Source of the DNA: Candidatus Thorarchaeota archaeon | GTDB lineage: Archaea; Asgardarchaeota; Thorarchaeia; Thorarchaeales; Thorarchaeaceae | Direction: 5' to 3' | Assembly (NCBI GenBank): GCA_016840965.1 | Contig: JAEORI010000119.1 | Span: 1-5,153, forward strand | Length of the DNA: 5,153 nt | Shown: piece by piece, positions 1-5,055 of the stretch | Numbering within the stretch: position 1 is the stretch's first letter | How the letters are laid out: every line of letters starts with the position of its first letter | Program-made: the position numbers and the translations under genes | Notes under the pieces: model-generated | Databases searched by the model: none | The model's input: the letters and a program-made list of their open reading frames with translations, nothing else | Told to the model about the DNA's origin: nothing

Positions 1-1081
1 GATAATAGGGAGGGAGTTCTCCTATTCTCATTCGCTGAACCACACCATTTGTTATGTACACTTGGCAGGGATACTCCATGCCACCATAGAAGGCAAACTG
101 CTCTACAACATTGAATGCTGAATATGGATAGATGCCATAGGTTGTGTTGAGAAGCAATAGGGTTTCACTAGTCCAGTCTAGGACATCGTCCTCCCACTCT
201 GGTTGTGAGCTTGGGATGTAAAAGCTTGACACGTTGATGAGCCCCACCATCATAGATTCCACGACATAGTATCGAGAGGCTGAGAATGTGACTTCGCGTA
301 CTGGCAGACCAGGACTGAAGTGGTATGTGGTATTGGCTCCATCGCTAAGACTCTCAATTAACTGACCTGTCGCTGCGACCACCATATCACTCGGGACTTC
401 AACCCAGAAATCATAGAACGCCATGTCAAGGTAGAAGGGGTCTCCATAGCTAACATACCCGTCTGTGTTCCAGCCATCATACTCATCGTAAACACATAGC
501 ATAGGATAGCAACTAGCGAATGTAAAAATTCGAGACTCACTGATGTCAGTACCCTGAGAGTTGGCTCTGTCAAGACCATCAGGCAGAGTGGTCTTGAATG
601 AGATTCGAAACGATGTATTTCCATTTGGTTCTATAGATGCAGGAAGATTTACCCACATTATCAGTTCCTCCGATTCAATATTGTAAGACAAGGGAACTGC
701 AGGCGTATCGATTGTGGTCACGTTTAATATCTCAATAGCTCCCTGTCTGCTATCAAAATCCATGCCAGAAGTATACAGATGAAATGGAATGCTTGAGAAA
801 GCAATCGATTCGTCATTATAATACTCTATAGTCAGATTACCAGCAACAGTTGAATGAGTATCATCCAGTGTGACTGATATATTCATGTACGAGAAACTAG
901 TCCCTGTGAAATCTCCTTCTGAGAACCGATTATAGTCATCGAGATCAACTTGGCTCAGCGAAGGCTTAATGTCAATCCTCAAATCCTTCTGAAGGTTCAT
1001 TAGTGGTGAATCTAGGTGTATTATATAAAATCCAGTGGACACCATCAAAAGAACTAGTGAGAAGACAAAGAATCTCTTCAA
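1..1081 (-). CDS. M1-family (aminopeptidase N-like) metallopeptidase, membrane-anchored, partial (C-terminus outside window)
   Basis: This frame is open for 360 codons from a TTG at 1081-1079 and runs off the window. Upstream on the minus strand lies an SD-like AGGTGG (1098-1093), 11 nt before the TTG. Residues 1-22 (MKRFFVFSLVLLMVSTGFYI...) form a signal anchor or uncleaved signal peptide, so the rest is probably extracellular. Residues ~60-230 read as the M1 N-terminal beta domain, with CYPMLCVYDEYDGW at 191-204 matching the family's 'WYPMLAVYD..GW' segment and GDPFY at 213-217. GGMEYP at 333-338 matches the M1 GxMEN-type substrate-binding motif. The catalytic HExxH-(18)-E would follow just past the window edge, so activity cannot be judged. 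Seven N-x-S/T sites (for example N67, N82, N120, N312) fit an exported archaeal glycoprotein. The family trims peptides from the N-terminus; the substrate here is unknown. The gene lies outside the tRNA-end repeat array and is separated from gene A by 182 bp. Confidence 0.85.
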   Translation of the reverse strand, partial: MKRFFVFSLVLLMVSTGFYIIHLDSPLMNLQKDLRIDIKPSLSQVDLDDYNRFSEGDFTGTSFSYMNISVTLDDTHSTVAGNLTIEYYNDESIAFSSIPFHLYTSGMDFDSRQGAIEILNVTTIDTPAVPLSYNIESEELIMWVNLPASIEPNGNTSFRISFKTTLPDGLDRANSQGTDISESRIFTFASCYPMLCVYDEYDGWNTDGYVSYGDPFYLDMAFYDFWVEVPSDMVVAATGQLIESLSDGANTTYHFSPGLPVREVTFSASRYYVVESMMVGLINVSSFYIPSSQPEWEDDVLDWTSETLLLLNTTYGIYPYSAFNVVEQFAFYGGMEYPCQVYITNGVVQRMRIGELPPYY

Positions 1082-1181
1082 GATGACAACTACCACCTGT
1101 TACTAGTTCCTTAACAATTATCTCAAAATGCATTAAGACCTAACGTCTAAAGCAATCAATAGATCATTGTGAGATTACTTG

Positions 1182-1231: not shown

Positions 1232-1249
1232 AGAAGAAGTGGCGCAGCC
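1232..1249 (-). repeat. tRNA-Asn 3'-end copy R1 (acceptor 3' strand + CCA + 3' flank)
   Basis: On the minus strand this site reads GGCTGCGCCACTTCTTCT. It matches the tRNA-Asn 3' end plus 8 nt of its downstream flank (4989-4972) at 17 of 18 positions, in the same orientation. The CCA equivalent is at 1242-1240. Similarity stops upstream in the T arm, so this is a 3' fragment and not a second tRNA. It begins 14 nt past the stop codon of gene A. It may be an attachment-site remnant left by insertion at the tRNA gene. Part of the match is low-complexity CTTCTTCT, which lowers its weight. Confidence 0.6.
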
Positions 1250-1263
1250 AATACCATGAATCG

Positions 1264-1884
1264 CTAGCTTGTCATCCCCGACTCGATCTCTTGGATCCTT
1301 TTCAAATATCTCTCTCTATTGGACTCGTTGATATCTTGTAGGGCTGCGAATTTGCGGATTGCTTCCAGGAACAACGGATGGCTTCTCATTATTTCAATCT
1401 CGAACTCTCTCTCATTCTGCATATGTGCTTCGTGTCTTACCTTGAATATCCATCCTGAGATTAACGAAGCAACCAACGAAACAAGCGCAATCCCAATGAT
1501 TATGTCATTTACTGGAAACTCAGGTACGAATGCGATAATTATTATGAAACTCAAGAAGAGAGCCGCGAAAAGGGATGTGACAATCATCAAATTCTGCGTA
1601 GGGTCCTGTCTCTGACTGGTTTCCTTGGTGACTGTGACGTAGGAGAGAATCTCGGAATCGCTCAATGCATCAACTTCCCACTCATACATCCACACCCAGA
1701 AATTCTCGGTGACATCCATAATGACGTAGGTGTCCAAAGTGGGATCTTCTTCACCTCTATACCGTTTCACTCTGAACTCTGCGTATTCCTCTTTCCTCTG
1801 TATGATTCTCTCTACTCTCTTGCATCTTTCATCTGTGTAGAATGAACCAAAAGGGATGTCCAAAACGTCAATCTCTACTGTCAA
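1264..1884 (-). CDS. Two-TM membrane protein of unrecognised family (protein A, 206 aa; paralogue of 4268-4903)
   Basis: I do not recognise this family. The start is TTG at 1884-1882: an in-frame TGA lies directly before it, and the VEID that follows is shared with the paralogue's start. GGGAG lies just upstream with only ~3 nt spacing. Residues 1-95 are charged and probably cytosolic, residues 99-120 and 126-149 are two closely spaced TM helices, and residues 150-206 form a charged helical tail. This gives an N-in/C-in hairpin topology. Residues shared with the paralogue include VEID near the N-terminus, FY-x-D...C (F15, Y16, D18, C21), VKR (39-41), GE-x-D, EWE-x-DAL (68-73), SE, and a tail with FL-x-A-x-RK-x-AA (172-181) followed by a basic helix. 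The gene sits alone between tRNA-end copies R1 and the weak copy at 1939-1959, divergent from the zinc-ribbon gene. No catalytic motif is evident. A sensor, a scaffold or a mobile-element accessory protein are all possible, and none can be preferred. Confidence 0.85.
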   Translation of the reverse strand: MTVEIDVLDIPFGSFYTDERCKRVERIIQRKEEYAEFRVKRYRGEEDPTLDTYVIMDVTENFWVWMYEWEVDALSDSEILSYVTVTKETSQRQDPTQNLMIVTSLFAALFLSFIIIIAFVPEFPVNDIIIGIALVSLVASLISGWIFKVRHEAHMQNEREFEIEIMRSHPLFLEAIRKFAALQDINESNRERYLKRIQEIESGMTS

Positions 1885-1938
1885 TCACTCCCACTCTTAT
1901 TTGAACGACATACATGAATGGTTATGAGGCTTTTCGAC

Positions 1939-1959
1939 AAGAATCAGCGCCGCCAGCAG
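1939..1959 (-). repeat. Weak fifth tRNA-Asn 3'-end copy (R')
   Basis: Aligned without gaps to 4974-4994, this site matches at 16 of 21 positions, including an unbroken GCGCCGCC (1947-1954) and the AAGAA block of the 3' flank. The CCA itself has decayed (CTG at 1947-1945 on the minus strand). Its position relative to gene A (about 60 nt upstream of the start) mirrors that of the real tRNA relative to gene B (about 76 nt). Alone it would be unconvincing; the conserved placement is what supports it. Confidence 0.35.
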
Positions 1960-1960
1960 C

Positions 1961-1968
1961 AATATTGA
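1961..1968 (+). promoter_or_regulatory. Possible TATA box for the zinc-ribbon gene
   Basis: AATATTGA lies about 45 nt upstream of the TTG start, in the 125-bp divergent gap between gene A and the zinc-ribbon gene. Initiation about 25 nt downstream would give a leader of about 20 nt that contains the Shine-Dalgarno sequence GGGAG (1998-2002). The match to the archaeal TATA consensus is modest. Confidence 0.3.
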
Positions 1969-2009
1969 TGTGTCTTTGAGGCAACTCAATCTCAGAAGGG
2001 AGTTTTGAA

Positions 2010-2252
2010 TTGGAAGCGACCGAGAAATGCCCATCTTGTGGAGAAGACATGGAACCCGGTTTTATTGTGTCTCGAGGAACTATCTCTTGGTGTGGTCATG
2101 TTCCCAAAGTGATCTGTTACTGTGGCGAAGTCCTATCGAAGGGGTTTGCTATCTGCGCCTATGTGCCTGGTTACCGATGTAAAAGATGTAAAATCATCCA
2201 CTATCAGGAAACTCAACAAAAGGATGAAACAGATGATTGGCCTGTTGGTTAG
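2010..2252 (+). CDS. Small zinc-ribbon protein, DUF6487-like (80 aa)
   Basis: The start is TTG at 2010-2012, preceded by GGGAG (1998-2002) at 7-nt spacing, which decides this start. The N-terminal CPSCGEDMEPGF (7-18), a central SW (26-27), GEVLSKG (39-45) and the C-terminal VPGYRCKRCK (52-61) follow the order of the DUF6487 zinc-ribbon family, in which two CxxC pairs (here C7/C10 and C57/C60) bind one zinc. Four further cysteines (C28, C36, C38, C49) are present, which could bind a second metal or form a cluster. There is no signal peptide or TM helix, so it is probably cytosolic. Family members have no firmly known function; a nucleic-acid or protein contact is typical of zinc ribbons but is only inference here. 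The gene is alone in the shortest repeat-bounded interval (326 bp), and its stop lies 5 nt before the shared TTTGAATAAAAG sequence. Confidence 0.85.
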   Translation: MEATEKCPSCGEDMEPGFIVSRGTISWCGHVPKVICYCGEVLSKGFAICAYVPGYRCKRCKIIHYQETQQKDETDDWPVG

Positions 2253-2255
2253 CTT

Positions 2256-2269
2256 CTTTTGAATAAAAG
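2256..2269. terminator. Short A/T hairpin after the zinc-ribbon gene
   Basis: CTTTT (2256-2260) and AAAAG (2265-2269) form a perfect 5-bp inverted repeat around GAAT, 3 nt past the stop codon. On the minus strand the same stretch gives a T-rich tract directly after the tRNA-like CCA, as expected downstream of an archaeal tRNA. It may therefore end transcription in either direction. The stem is weak, so T-tract termination is more likely than a hairpin mechanism. Confidence 0.4.
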
Positions 2270-2284
2270 ATGGCGCCTCCGGGA
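2258..2284 (-). repeat. tRNA 3'-end copy R2 with TCTTTTATTCAAA flank
   Basis: This 27-nt site is identical to R3 (4239-4265) at 25 positions, in direct orientation. Its core at 2271-2284 matches the tRNA-Asn 3' end (4980-4993) at 13 of 14 positions; the minus strand reads TCCCGGAGGCGCCA, with CCA at 2273-2271. The flank beyond the CCA differs from that of the tRNA but is shared with R3. No tRNA body lies upstream of it. Confidence 0.75.
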
Positions 2285-2310
2285 GCAAGAATATTAGCTT
2301 GTTTTTGAAA

Positions 2311-2322
2311 AAGATTAAATTT
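2311..2322 (+). promoter_or_regulatory. Likely TATA-like promoter of the surface-protein gene
   Basis: AAGATTAAATTT lies inside a strongly A/T-rich stretch (2287-2342) and is preceded by a purine run that could serve as a BRE. Its centre is about 38 nt from the TTG start, which would give a short leader of about 12 nt. A second A/T block (AAATATTAAA, 2333-2342) lies too close to the start to be the TATA box unless a downstream start codon is used. Confidence 0.4.
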
Positions 2323-2355
2323 ACAATTGTAGAAATATTAAACGGGGCATAAGAA

Positions 2356-4173
2356 TTGAGGAGTAGACTGGCTTCAGTCCTTCTGTGCATACTAATGTTT
2401 TCTGGACTTGTAGTACCGTTACTTATCTTAAGTAATTCAGATAAAACTGAGAATCTCCTCCCATCAAATCAAATGGGACTAGCAGAAACCAGTTTCTTCT
2501 GGCATGATGATTGTTCCAACACAACAGGTTGGGCAGAGAATACAACCAATGTTGAGAATCTGGTTCAATATTACCAGTCTGGAATATCCCTTCTAACAGA
2601 TGGGAATGGTCTATACTCTGATACGATTCCTGAATATAGTTCTGACCTTCATGGAGCGCAGTTTTTCAAGAAGATTCGAACACCAATGAAACTAGAAAAC
2701 AACTTGGATTTCAGAGTTGAAATAGACCATCCAGGAACGTCTGGCATGGCGGGTAGTGTTGGAGTCGTTTTACTTGATCAGTACAACGCGTCTGTTTTCA
2801 AAGCTGGGGGCGTTGATGGTTGGACTGGGTCCGCATGCAACGCTTGGGTGGCGTATAGGGAGGATGGCTCCCAAGCAACTGAGTATAATAATAAGAGTGG
2901 CGCATGGTCTGGAGTTGTAAGAGTGTGGTACGATTCCGAAACATCAAGTATCAAGGGCGATGCCGCAGGTGTTGAATTCTCACTAGCATCATCAGGTAGC
3001 TTTGATCCCTCTCGTGAAGTTTACTGGGTGGGTTTAGTCTTCTACAACATGCAATCGTACCCATATGAATCTCATATTGTCACAGATATCACAGTTTCAA
3101 CAACTATGGACACCCTCCCACCTACCATTTGGCATCACGACTGCTCCAACACTACGGGTTTCGTTTCTCAATCCAGCTGGGACACGAGTTGGTATTATGC
3201 AGGCTGGACAATAGACAGTGGACTTCTCAGCTCATCCGGAACGAGCATCAGTATCTCCAATATTCCATCTGGCAACGGTTGGCATGGTCCAGCATTCACC
3301 TATGAGTTTGGAACTACTTTTCATGTGTCCGACGTACTGAATTTTGCTGTCGATATTCAAATTGACAATACTGTGGCGAATTATCTTGGACGATATTATC
3401 TCTACCTTGCTGACACGAAACAGAAACCAACGTATCTTTTCACAGGTCATGACTATCTTGCGGCATCAACTACTGGAGCTTATGGTGTCCAATACTTTTT
3501 CGAGAACGGAACATACTTCGCTTACGGTTCTCCCTCCACCTATTCATACACAGATTTTGATGGTCGAATGGAAACCGGATTAGATGAAATGAATGTATAT
3601 GGATATGTGGATGGATTTGGGCAGGACAATCTAGCAGTTCTTGATGAATCTGAACTGTCCAGAGAAATAAGATATATCGTCTTCATGGGAGGTGCTTTTG
3701 ATGCCGACCCCCTAATGCCCATTCGGATACATGATATCAAACTAACATTTGTCGAATCTCCGGAACCTGAGGATGAACTCACAATCGACCATCCAGCTGA
3801 CATTGTCTACAACGTGGGAGAAACCGGTAGCAACATCACTTGGACTCCTTTATCTTACTACCCTTACATGTATCAGCTCTTTGTTAACAATGAATCAATC
3901 GACTCAGGTCTGTGGTCTGGTAATCAAATTGTTGTTGATGTCGATGGTCTGGGTCTTGGGATCTATAATTACACACTTCGTGTATTTAACAATATGATGG
4001 AGTCTGTATCAGATGATGTGATTGTCACAGTCCTCGGACAGACAGTAGGTGGTACGCTCATCACCATGGGTATTAGCATCGGATCAATTACAGTGATTGT
4101 GGTTGTTACTGTACTCCTCCTCCAAAGAAGACCCGGCGAAATTGTAACAACTCCAAGCTCTTATGATTGGTGA
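2356..4173 (+). CDS. Secreted, C-terminally membrane-anchored surface protein with duplicated N-terminal domain and Ig/PKD-like domain (605 aa)
   Basis: The start is TTG at 2356, which gives the best signal peptide: basic RSR, then a hydrophobic core at residues 6-26. GGGG (2344-2347) upstream is a weak SD. Two related ~200-residue domains follow, at ~48-250 and ~258-467. Each opens with a near-identical motif, WHDDCSNTTGW (49-59) and WHHDCSNTTGF (259-269), and is rich in beta-strand-like and aromatic segments; a jelly-roll or lectin-like fold is a guess. Residues ~475-560 form an Ig/PKD-like domain (IDHPADIVYNVGETG, ITWTP, then GIYNYTLRV at 535-543) of the type common in archaeal surface proteins. 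A TM helix at ~566-589 is followed by a stop-transfer RR and a 14-residue cytosolic tail. Nine N-x-S/T sites indicate heavy N-glycosylation. There is no enzyme motif, so an adhesion or carbohydrate-binding role is inferred. It is the only gene between tRNA-end copies R2 and R3, with its own promoter and a hairpin downstream. Confidence 0.88.
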   Translation: MRSRLASVLLCILMFSGLVVPLLILSNSDKTENLLPSNQMGLAETSFFWHDDCSNTTGWAENTTNVENLVQYYQSGISLLTDGNGLYSDTIPEYSSDLHGAQFFKKIRTPMKLENNLDFRVEIDHPGTSGMAGSVGVVLLDQYNASVFKAGGVDGWTGSACNAWVAYREDGSQATEYNNKSGAWSGVVRVWYDSETSSIKGDAAGVEFSLASSGSFDPSREVYWVGLVFYNMQSYPYESHIVTDITVSTTMDTLPPTIWHHDCSNTTGFVSQSSWDTSWYYAGWTIDSGLLSSSGTSISISNIPSGNGWHGPAFTYEFGTTFHVSDVLNFAVDIQIDNTVANYLGRYYLYLADTKQKPTYLFTGHDYLAASTTGAYGVQYFFENGTYFAYGSPSTYSYTDFDGRMETGLDEMNVYGYVDGFGQDNLAVLDESELSREIRYIVFMGGAFDADPLMPIRIHDIKLTFVESPEPEDELTIDHPADIVYNVGETGSNITWTPLSYYPYMYQLFVNNESIDSGLWSGNQIVVDVDGLGLGIYNYTLRVFNNMMESVSDDVIVTVLGQTVGGTLITMGISIGSITVIVVVTVLLLQRRPGEIVTTPSSYDW

Positions 4174-4204
4174 CAAGAATTTGGATACTCAAGCCATCCA
4201 GTCC

Positions 4205-4241
4205 ACCTCAGGATTTCTGAAAGAATTGGAAATTGAGGTTT
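4205..4241 (+). terminator. Hairpin followed by TTT after the surface-protein gene
   Basis: ACCTCA (4205-4210) pairs with TGAGGT (4234-4239), and ATTTC (4213-4217) pairs with GAAAT (4229-4233). This leaves a 2-nt GG bulge on one side and an 11-nt loop. The right arm runs directly into TTTGAATAAAAG of repeat R3. It begins 31 nt after the stop codon and is the best candidate for the mRNA 3' end. It overlaps R3 by a few bases, so gene end and repeat are contiguous. Confidence 0.5.
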
Positions 4242-4265
4242 GAATAAAAGATGGCACCGCCGGGA
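4239..4265 (-). repeat. tRNA 3'-end copy R3 with TCTTTTATTCAAA flank
   Basis: This is the direct-repeat partner of R2 (25 of 27 identical). The core at 4252-4265 differs from the tRNA-Asn 3' end (4980-4993) at one of 14 positions; the minus strand reads TCCCGGCGGTGCCA, with CCA at 4254-4252. The core begins 2 nt past the stop codon of gene B and abuts the terminator hairpin of the surface-protein gene. It is thus the boundary between two convergent genes. Confidence 0.75.
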
Positions 4266-4267
4266 TA

Positions 4268-4903
4268 TTATGAGTTGATTTCGTTCATCGCATTTTCGAT
4301 ATACTCTAATCTGCTGATGTGCTCATCTTTATCCACATACGCCGTTTTCGGGACCGCTGCAAGTTTTCTCAGAGCTCCAAGAAAAGAGGAGTCATTTCTT
4401 GCCGCTTCCAAGTCTATCTCTCCCCTTTTTAGAATAGTAAGTTTACGTTTCAAATAGTAGACGATTCCTGACAAAGCCATGAGTATAGATGAGGCGAGAG
4501 TGACTATAAGCAGCGCTTCTGGGACTGGTTTAAGCATAAGGACGATTTGGAGCGACATAACCAGAAACAAACCAGTTATTGAAACGCCTCCTAGAAATAG
4601 CTTGAACGATATTGATTCCAACTTGTCTGAGTATTGTTCTCTTTTTTGTTGGACTGAGATAAAAGAGGCAAGCTCAGAACCATTCAATGCGTCAATTTCC
4701 CATTCTTCGAGAGTGACTATATTCTCTCCATGCTTATTTCTAACAACAAATGGGTCATTCGGTGCGTCTTCGCCACAGAACTCACGTTTGACCTCACATT
4801 CTTTGTATCTGAAATCCTTCCGAAGAATCTCCTCAATCTCTCTACATTTATCATCCTTATAGAATGCGCCATCCAGCTCAGCAGGATCAATCTCGACTCT
4901 CAC
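4268..4903 (-). CDS. Two-TM membrane protein of unrecognised family (protein B, 211 aa; paralogue of 1264-1884)
   Basis: The start is GTG at 4903-4901. Upstream the frame meets a TAG with no other start between, and the resulting VEID N-terminus matches protein A. AGG (4909-4907) is very close to the start, the same tight spacing seen for A. The layout copies A: a charged N-terminal domain (1-97), TM helices at ~100-124 and ~129-151, and a basic/acidic helical tail. Shared positions include GAFY (12-15) with C20, VKR (38-40), GED (44-46), the ENI turn, EWEIDAL (67-73), SEL (76-78), and FLGALRKLAA (174-183) against FLEAIRKFAA in A. Overall identity by eye is about 30%, so the duplication is old or the copies arrived separately. 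Extra cysteines (C36, C43) are absent from A. The gene lies 76 nt downstream of tRNA-Asn on the same strand and ends 2 nt before R3. The function is unknown, and no enzymatic motif is visible. Confidence 0.85.
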   Translation of the reverse strand: MRVEIDPAELDGAFYKDDKCREIEEILRKDFRYKECEVKREFCGEDAPNDPFVVRNKHGENIVTLEEWEIDALNGSELASFISVQQKREQYSDKLESISFKLFLGGVSITGLFLVMSLQIVLMLKPVPEALLIVTLASSILMALSGIVYYLKRKLTILKRGEIDLEAARNDSSFLGALRKLAAVPKTAYVDKDEHISRLEYIENAMNEINS

Positions 4904-4940
4904 TTTCCTGTTTCGCCAACTGTACTATCAACTGAAAACG

Positions 4941-4948
4941 GATATAGG
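4941..4948 (-). promoter_or_regulatory. Possible TATA box for gene B
   Basis: On the minus strand this reads CTATATC, about 40 nt before the GTG start and downstream of the tRNA 3' end. Initiation about 25 nt further on would leave a leader of about 15 nt. Gene B could therefore be transcribed on its own, or by read-through from the tRNA. The T/C-rich tract after the tRNA CCA (4979-4971) argues that most tRNA transcripts stop first. Confidence 0.35.
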
Positions 4949-4979
4949 TTTCCTGACAAGAAATTTGTAGAAGAAGAAG

Positions 4980-5055
4980 TGGCGCCGCCGGGAGGGCTTG
5001 AACCTCCGACCAACAACTTAACAGGCTGTCGCTCTACCGACTGAGCCACGGCGGC
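4980..5055 (-). tRNA. tRNA-Asn (anticodon GTT), CCA encoded
   Basis: A complete cloverleaf can be drawn. The 5' acceptor GCCGCCG (5055-5049) pairs perfectly with CGGCGGC (4990-4984). The D arm is GCTC/GAGC (5046-5043, 5034-5031) with the loop AGTCGGTA. The anticodon stem ACAGC/GTTGT (5029-5025, 5017-5013) carries the loop CTGTTAA, placing anticodon GTT at 5022-5020. The variable loop is 5 nt. The T stem GGAGG/CCTCC encloses TTCAAGC. The discriminator base is G (4983) and the CCA is genomically encoded at 4982-4980. There is no intron. A CT-rich tract follows immediately. The gene decodes asparagine AAC/AAU and appears intact, although its 3' end is copied at several downstream sites. Confidence 0.97.

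Follow-up and report, generated by a model that had tools for sequence, protein, structure and literature searches.

Of the systems that resemble the tRNA-Asn locus described in this paper, the tycheposons of Prochlorococcus likewise consist of cargo units stacked at tRNA genes, although their units are larger and carry mobility genes, and the dif modules are served by a recombinase that is coded elsewhere. The locus lies in a stretch of 5,153 nucleotides from a Candidatus Thorarchaeota archaeon (the window: the whole of the DNA analysed, positions 1 to 5,153 of contig JAEORI010000119.1, assembly GCA_016840965.1), in which copies of the 3' end of a tRNA-Asn gene separate single genes. The dif modules of Acinetobacter plasmids are small modules between short sites, and are shuffled, deleted and inverted as the units appear to be here; their sites, however, are the pdif sites of XerC/XerD on plasmids, whereas those of the present locus are tRNA-Asn 3'-end copies beside that very tRNA gene, in an archaeon (PMC13141974). 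By this analogy, they are the nearest known system in behaviour. Integrons and CALINs (integron arrays without an integrase) share with the locus the rows of single genes between recombination sites, the diversity of accessory genes, and a recombinase that is often missing from the genome; archaeal integrons, with attC sites, are already in print (PMC9668308). Elements that target tRNA genes with tyrosine recombinases (those of SNJ2 type in particular) also rebuild the tRNA after insertion, but they carry an integrase and several genes, while the units seen here are mostly single genes without an integrase (PMC8371274).

The reading that we regard as probable, although well short of assured, is that one-gene cassettes are gained, lost and exchanged by site-specific recombination at the copied tRNA-Asn 3' ends, through a recombinase that is predicted to work in trans. 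The array is best read as working like an integron or a dif-module array, and we do not claim that it is a member of either class. The first-pass annotation, made from the window alone, had called the array integron-like: this holds for its apparent mode of working, but not for membership. The sites lack attC features. The window contains the following features.

2..1096, minus strand: gene of an M1-family aminopeptidase, running off the contig (relatives carry PF01433)
1232..1251, minus strand: half-site copy 4, AGAAGAAGTGGCGC, divergent beyond; homology blocks of the M1 gene stop at 1237 (G001) and 1238 (G003)
1264..1884, minus strand: cassette gene DUF-A1, 206 aa, a paralogue of DUF-A2 (28% identity, E 2e-30)
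1939..1959, minus strand: weak site copy 3, CAGCGCCGCCAGCAGC, 3 mismatches in 12; left end (1947) of the DUF6487 block shared with G003
2010..2252, plus strand: cassette gene with a DUF6487 domain, 80 aa (Pfam PF20097, E 1.3e-8)
2258..2286, minus strand: site copy 2, TTTGAATAAAAGA followed by TGGCGCCTCCGGGAGC, 1 mismatch; right end (2285) of the DUF6487 block shared with G003
2356..4173, plus strand: cassette gene (open reading frame, ORF), 605 aa, by eye a secreted protein with a C-terminal membrane anchor
4239..4266, minus strand: site copy 1, a purine-rich flank followed by TGGCACCGCCGGGA, 1 mismatch in 12; a homology block with G004 begins at 4252
4268..4903, minus strand: cassette gene DUF-A2 (ORF), 211 aa, by eye a two-helix membrane protein, with relatives in 16 of 47 genomes
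4980..5055, minus strand: tRNA-Asn (GTT), intron-less, CCA encoded (ARAGORN; Rfam tRNA 70.4 bits)

With up to three mismatches, TGGCGCCGCCGGGA matches the window three times (at 2271, at 4252 and at the tRNA-Asn end, 4980), where shuffling predicts 0.06 matches and three were reached in none of 200 shuffles. The copies reported in the first-pass annotation are real. Those of 27 nt at 2258-2284 and 4239-4265 are 93% alike; positions 1232-1249 also match 4972-4989 at 17 of 18 bases (94%). The copies at 1240, where the left half AGAAGTGGCGC alone is retained, and at 1945, which reads CAGCGCCGCCAG with three mismatches in 12 (in a register set by hand, one base off the automated scoring), were missed by the 3-mismatch scan and are insignificant taken singly; their support comes from homology blocks shared with other genomes, which stop at these positions. 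The presumed chromosomal attachment site is formed by the final 15 or so bases of the tRNA gene. As first described, the intervals (705, 326, 1981 and 728 bp) hold one gene each, in mixed directions: a single ORF of at least 60 aa was found in every one (206, 80, 605 and 211 aa), the first and the last being the two DUF-A paralogues. The Pfam search returned no match for the 605-aa protein and no integrase among the window proteins tested, in keeping with the earlier remark that no recombinase is visible. The nearest named relatives of the M1 aminopeptidase are Thorarchaeotal, and in two other genomes its gene is flanked on both sides by weak sites (G003, interval 7532-9688; G002, contig C2, interval 5318-7417).

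Relatives were gathered through the M1 gene of the window (20 loci). The family considered below comprises 47 genomes (G numbers; L numbers denote loci), stretches of 36 of which were read together with a short locus of G036, and the Asgard-wide scan covered 227 genomes. The consensus of 38 non-tRNA sites, from the window and its relatives, is a purine-rich flank, TGGCGCCGCCGG and then K-A-G, and corresponds to the CCA, the discriminator base, the 3' strand of the acceptor stem and a few bases of the T-stem. In some lineages the copies are longer, with 46 bp unchanged between G031 and G032 and 47 bp at 91% between G028 and G034.

The motif scan of relatives called for by the first-pass annotation revealed tandem copies at the tRNA-Asn locus: at least 18 of the 47 genomes have extra copies near tRNA-Asn or its neighbours. 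Ten have two or more (G001, G002, G003, G004, with one full and two half copies, G018, G024, G026, G034, G035 and G038), and eight have one (G005, G015, G028, G032, G036, G042, G045 and G046, the latter with a partial copy in addition). The exact 15-mer TGGCGCCNCCGGKAG occurs 33 times in 22 of the 227 Asgard genomes, with 31 occurrences in 20 genomes of the family, compared with five occurrences for the reversed pattern. With up to one mismatch, the genome-wide matches, with those of the reversed control in parentheses, are 3 (0) in G001, 2 (1) in G002, 5 (1) in G003, 6 (3) in G004, 9 (3) in G005, 7 (6) in G006 and 7 (6) in G007; all three in G001 and all five in G003 lie within 3.2 kb, and both in G002 within 0.9 kb. 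Only 4 of 36 control rows for tRNAs other than Asn have a similar copy within 10 kb, always a single one (hand count; many of these loci are 2-3 kb long). No array was found at another tRNA among the loci examined, the genomes not having been scanned tRNA by tRNA, and the viral contigs contained neither an exact extended site nor a DUF-A relative. Where visible, the neighbours of the arrays are constant: F06 (MutS-like), F05, F02 and F04 or F10 border them at one end, and at the opposite end stands either the ZIP transporter F03 or F07.

These counts bear on the simplest objection, namely that the site is a short repeat or terminator which has spread into the gaps beside ordinary genes. The sites are indeed intergenic, and on the opposite strand have a pyrimidine-rich tail as at the tRNA's own end. 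However, the motif clusters at the tRNA-Asn locus, and its direction is fixed within each gene family while differing among families, which disposes of the generic terminator that the first-pass annotation had named as a threat to its proposal. In addition, the gain and loss of whole genes is bounded by the site, and seven DUF-A genes located elsewhere in five genomes have no site within 1.5 kb:

L172, L185 and L188 (G030), L173 (G027), L174 (G020), L177 (G023) and L179 (G017): off-array DUF-A genes without a site

The explanation was rejected on the genome counts and the site-less DUF-A genes, and its probability is practically negligible. A search with a DUF-A profile found the locus of G036, where the tRNA search had found nothing: L180 (798-2100) has the 5' end of tRNA-Asn, a one-mismatch site and a DUF-A gene, in the same directions as elsewhere, the DUF-A copy having an in-frame stop. 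Two isolated matches were also observed, one in G029, with one mismatch and about 660 bp from a DUF-A gene, and one in G037 (L148 9993-10004), a single exact site with no recognizable tRNA-Asn nearby.

Taking ORFs of at least 60 aa with their starts inside the interval, and including weak sites, a single ORF was found in 29 of 34 intervals, that is, tandem single-gene cassettes as in integrons. Since gene density alone predicts about one gene in such lengths, the telling fact is that a site stands in successive gaps of the array and in none outside it. Among the array genes run against Pfam are members of the M55 peptidases, PRC-barrel proteins, methyltransferases, beta-helix proteins, beta-lactamase-fold enzymes, short-chain dehydrogenases, flavin reductases, GNAT, homoserine dehydrogenases, molybdopterin oxidoreductases and DUF6487, and no recombinase. 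The orientation of gene to site is constant in all 40 occurrences of 12 families (hand count, leaving out a NosD-like pair in G034 and the flavin reductase of G004, which has no site of its own).

Such single-gene arrays look like those of integrons, and the literature reports that Asgard archaea are enriched in integrons and that most of the archaeal integrons found are CALINs (PMC9668308). A classical integron array lacking its integrase, with the sites being attC, might thus be considered, but we give this almost no credence. The attC motif pair RYYYAAC...GTTRRRY spans none of 43 sites, with 0.66 expected by shuffling, and the sites fold no better than shuffled ones (mean z +0.15, 2 of 86 strands below -2); classical attC sites were rejected on this motif and fold, no attC covariance model having been run. 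No IntI was recognized among the array proteins tested, the genes run in both directions, and the border is the end of the tRNA gene itself, while the main text of the survey makes no mention of tRNA (PMC9668308).

Comparison of closely related loci, which the first-pass annotation had also called for, showed differences of single intervals with junctions in the repeat. In G031 and G032, a stretch of 46 bp without any change, ending in TGGCGCCACCGGTAG, is followed by tRNA-Asn in the former and by gene F25 in the latter; identity is 86% over 300 bp on the left of the site and 50% over 100 bp on the right, and the tRNA gene of G032 is on another contig than its F25 junction. The pair thus has a rebuilt tRNA and a displaced 3' end, as found with mobile elements integrated in tRNA genes. 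G045 has the order F04-site-tRNA, and G046 the order F04-partial site-GNAT gene-site-tRNA. The DUF-A block of G024 and G035 is 93.4% identical over 349 nt and stops at the site, while the flanks are 68.4% (F04-F06, 2519 nt) and 72.1% (F10, 366 nt) identical; at the protein level, the cassette is 92% identical compared with 58-82% for the flanks. G031 and G035 share 92.7% identity over 3066 bp of flank, with the site and 38 nt there in common (94.7%), and G031 continues into the tRNA.

The DUF6487 cassette aligns from site to site, and no further, between the window and G003. It was found in four different neighbourhoods, the same cassette standing beside other genes in G003, G026 and G028, and the order of FlavR and a 370-aa gene is swapped between G038 and G002. 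More generally, 37 of 56 sites have the end of a homology block no more than 20 bp away, compared with 22 of 98 midpoints of intergenic gaps that lack a site (p 1.3e-7 by Fisher's test, the rows not being independent); against a uniform null, 49 of 224 block ends lie near sites where 9.0 are expected, but we rely more on the intergenic control. The first-pass annotation had conceded that the same genes found always together would speak against it; the relatives instead show single intervals present, absent and reordered, with junctions within the repeat. In addition, the DUF6487 cassette has an inner edge, GCAAATGTTGATGTGT (window 1960-1975; L063 13040-13058; L094 10968-10985; L097 9426-9445), that resembles the sequence upstream of tRNA-Asn, GCAATGTTAATATTG, and may be a captured promoter.

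Alternatively, such a row could have arisen from ordinary integrative elements or satellites that inserted one after another at the 3' end of tRNA-Asn, and of which decay has left a single cargo gene each; the sites would then be att remnants and there would be no cassette system. Integration at archaeal tRNA 3' ends, and in tandem at one locus, is well known (PMC8371274), and serial insertion next to the tRNA should make the farther sites more degenerate, as is observed going away from the tRNA in the window (1, 1, 3 and 3 mismatches, the third site being hand-registered), on the F04 side of G003 (0, 1, 2, 2) and in G004 (0, 5, 4). This polarity, however, is absent in G038 (1, 1, 1, 3, 1) and on the F03 side of G003 (0, 0). 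No integrase or replication gene was found with Pfam among 20 proteins of the arrays and their borders, the great majority of intervals hold a single ORF, the same cassette recurs with the same inner edge and different neighbours, and close relatives already differ by units the size of a gene, as with the GNAT gene of G046. We therefore consider serial integration unlikely.

Far less probable is insertion by a casposase or Cas1-like enzyme, which would place gene-sized fragments at the tRNA 3' end with a target-site duplication of 14-15 bp, as in a CRISPR array with gene-sized spacers. Casposons do target tRNA 3' ends, making copies of 14-15 bp (PMC6977970), and the copied core is 15-16 bp here; yet they are transposons with a Cas1-type enzyme and terminal repeats (PMC6977970), while Cas1, present in 11 of the 47 genomes, had no match in the 18 that carry extra copies (raw counts from draft assemblies), and on this ground the casposase was rejected. 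Moreover, target duplication would account for insertion, but leaves unexplained the inversion of the tRNA, the reordering with the same edges, and the match between two G001 sites over 25 identical bases beyond the core.

The inversion is seen at the F04 flank, common to G006, G045, G005 and G046. In G006 this flank adjoins the tRNA 3' end, and in G045 and G005 it is followed by a stub site and an inverted tRNA. The comparison between species thus points to inversion, deletion and shuffling of modules at the sites, as in dif-module arrays.

Flipping of the tRNA is also expected if a homing-type nuclease, the LAGLIDADG-like F07, cuts at or near the tRNA 3' end, and genes are imported as the break is mended with other alleles or ectopic DNA as template:

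L065 7251-9641; L062 10209-12221; L095 90-2012; L149 1325-2953; L153 40-2079: F07, LAGLIDADG-like gene of 542-796 aa adjoining the 3' end of tRNA-Asn, with decayed copies in some genomes

F07 is faced by the tRNA 3' end in all 10 loci that show both, and has two LAGLIDADG-like motifs (partly by eye), a weak match to 2dch, the structure of a homing endonuclease (E 0.011, and 0.6 with the copy from G033), and, in G033, a match to PF14528 (E 5.7e-4) just under the curated cut-off. At its place G045 has an HNH-like gene (L146 10103-10789; E 0.0017, below cut-off), and several of these tRNAs contain introns. The gene beside the tRNA is, then, a real rival as the helper. On the other hand, a search with a profile built from three F07 proteins failed to recover the nuclease structure, F07 was not observed next to the tRNA in the site-bearing G003, G004 and G028, and G022, G033 and G040 have F07 with no extra site in the stretches read. 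A nuclease would also leave unexplained the 15-bp copy at each gene and the fixed orientation, and altogether we consider it improbable.

As regards the tRNA-Asn gene itself, introns are frequent in the family (L063 11458-11624; L064 3643-3780), differently from the window; that of L063 has three (D-loop, anticodon loop and T-loop, by eye), and its last exon, of 17 nt, is close to the site itself. A pattern search for the whole tRNA found no match in the genome contigs, probably because the relatives have introns. The acceptor stem varies by paired changes (GCCACCG in L152, L153 and L145; GCCATCG in L095, L155 and L156; GCCGTCG in L149), and the array sites match their own form of tRNA-Asn in G028 and G032 and another form in G018 and G038. 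Relic tRNA-Asn 5' halves lie near arrays (L062 1545-1566, L095 2377-2398, L061 1654-1675), promoter-like upstream and with no recognized 3' end; they are signs of duplication and loss of tRNA-Asn, or of a split tRNA. In G015, two tRNA-Asn loci (L103 and L102) look like different lineages, the F04 of one contig being 96% identical to that of G006, and the assembly may be mixed; on contig C336 of the same genome, a GNAT gene and a site are followed by 2.8 kb more before the tRNA.

The first-pass annotation had also proposed a search for tyrosine recombinases nearby. PF00589 has matches in 18 of the 47 family genomes, but in seven of the ten with two or more extra copies there is none. The PF16795 model, with no match in the 47 genomes, gave a signal in 3 of 14 control genomes and exceeded the cut-off in one, and is therefore weak evidence. 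The serine recombinase PF00239 was found in 14 of the 47 genomes, and among the ten array genomes in G018 and G035 only.

Several points weigh against recombination of cassettes at these sites. No recombinase was recognized in any array, and seven of the ten array genomes, all draft assemblies (G001, G002, G003, G004, G024, G034 and G038), match none of PF00589, PF16795, PF01867 and PF00239. These assemblies are in many contigs, several arrays lie at contig ends, and the named relatives are, to go by their titles, metagenome assemblies (one title lacks the mark); the DUF-A block shared by G024 and G035 is itself cut by the start of the contig in G024. The inverted stub beside the tRNA was not seen in G006, and the next outward gene is HSD in G035 and Mo in G031, which makes this pair other than a simple empty and occupied one. 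In the other families, where both can be compared, the identity of the cassettes is about that of the core genes; most arrays may therefore be old, and only one cassette shows evidence of having been transferred recently. The constant orientation is in part inherited synteny (M1-PRC-DUF-A), and the two NosD-like paralogues of G034, which form one BLAST cluster and were not counted as one family, are oppositely oriented to their sites. In a few cases, ORFs taken with the longest start overreach a site (G018 3708, G026 9756, G038 4633), and two or more ORFs were found in five of the 34 intervals:

G001, 458-2823: two genes and a tRNA 5' relic
G034, 3380-5918: three genes
G035, 4810-6491: one gene and two tiny ORFs
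G038, 761-1981: two genes
G042: F07 in pieces

If cassettes do recombine at the sites, each would travel with a single site, in circular form or on some equivalent donor. Crossing over in the shared core TGGCGCC...GKAG at the tRNA 3' end would rebuild the tRNA and push the older flank, with its site, outward; a crossover between two direct sites would delete or free a cassette; and between two inverted sites it would flip the intervening DNA, tRNA included. Conservative site-specific recombination would thus explain, with one reaction, how DNA is inserted next to the tRNA, deleted, reordered with its edges kept, and inverted. The enzyme would be a tyrosine recombinase that uses the tRNA 3' acceptor end alone, possibly supplied in trans by a virus, a plasmid or a helper element. 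A short site of this kind, comprising only the tRNA 3' acceptor end, is described in a review for the haloarchaeal SNJ2 element, and an inversion reaction of IntSNJ2 is reported there too (PMC8371274).

A bolder proposal, held only tentatively and at somewhat less than an even chance, is that the locus is an archaeal counterpart of the integron with an origin of its own, serving as a standing platform for gene capture. Genes would enter singly at a housekeeping tRNA gene, whose 3' end would form the border of each cassette, and would pass from species to species, while a flip of the tRNA would let capture move to its other side. In the literature searched, mostly outside subscription papers, the matches listed held no account of such arrays. 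If genes are truly captured and swapped singly, this would be a gene-collecting system separate from the known integrons, and the capture of gene cassettes would not be tied to integrons; it would also make possible a direct search for a recombinase that reads the bare acceptor end of a tRNA. Asgard archaea, the lineage nearest to eukaryotes, would then have one safe locus at which to acquire genes singly and ready for use, with a bearing on how these archaea took up foreign genes.

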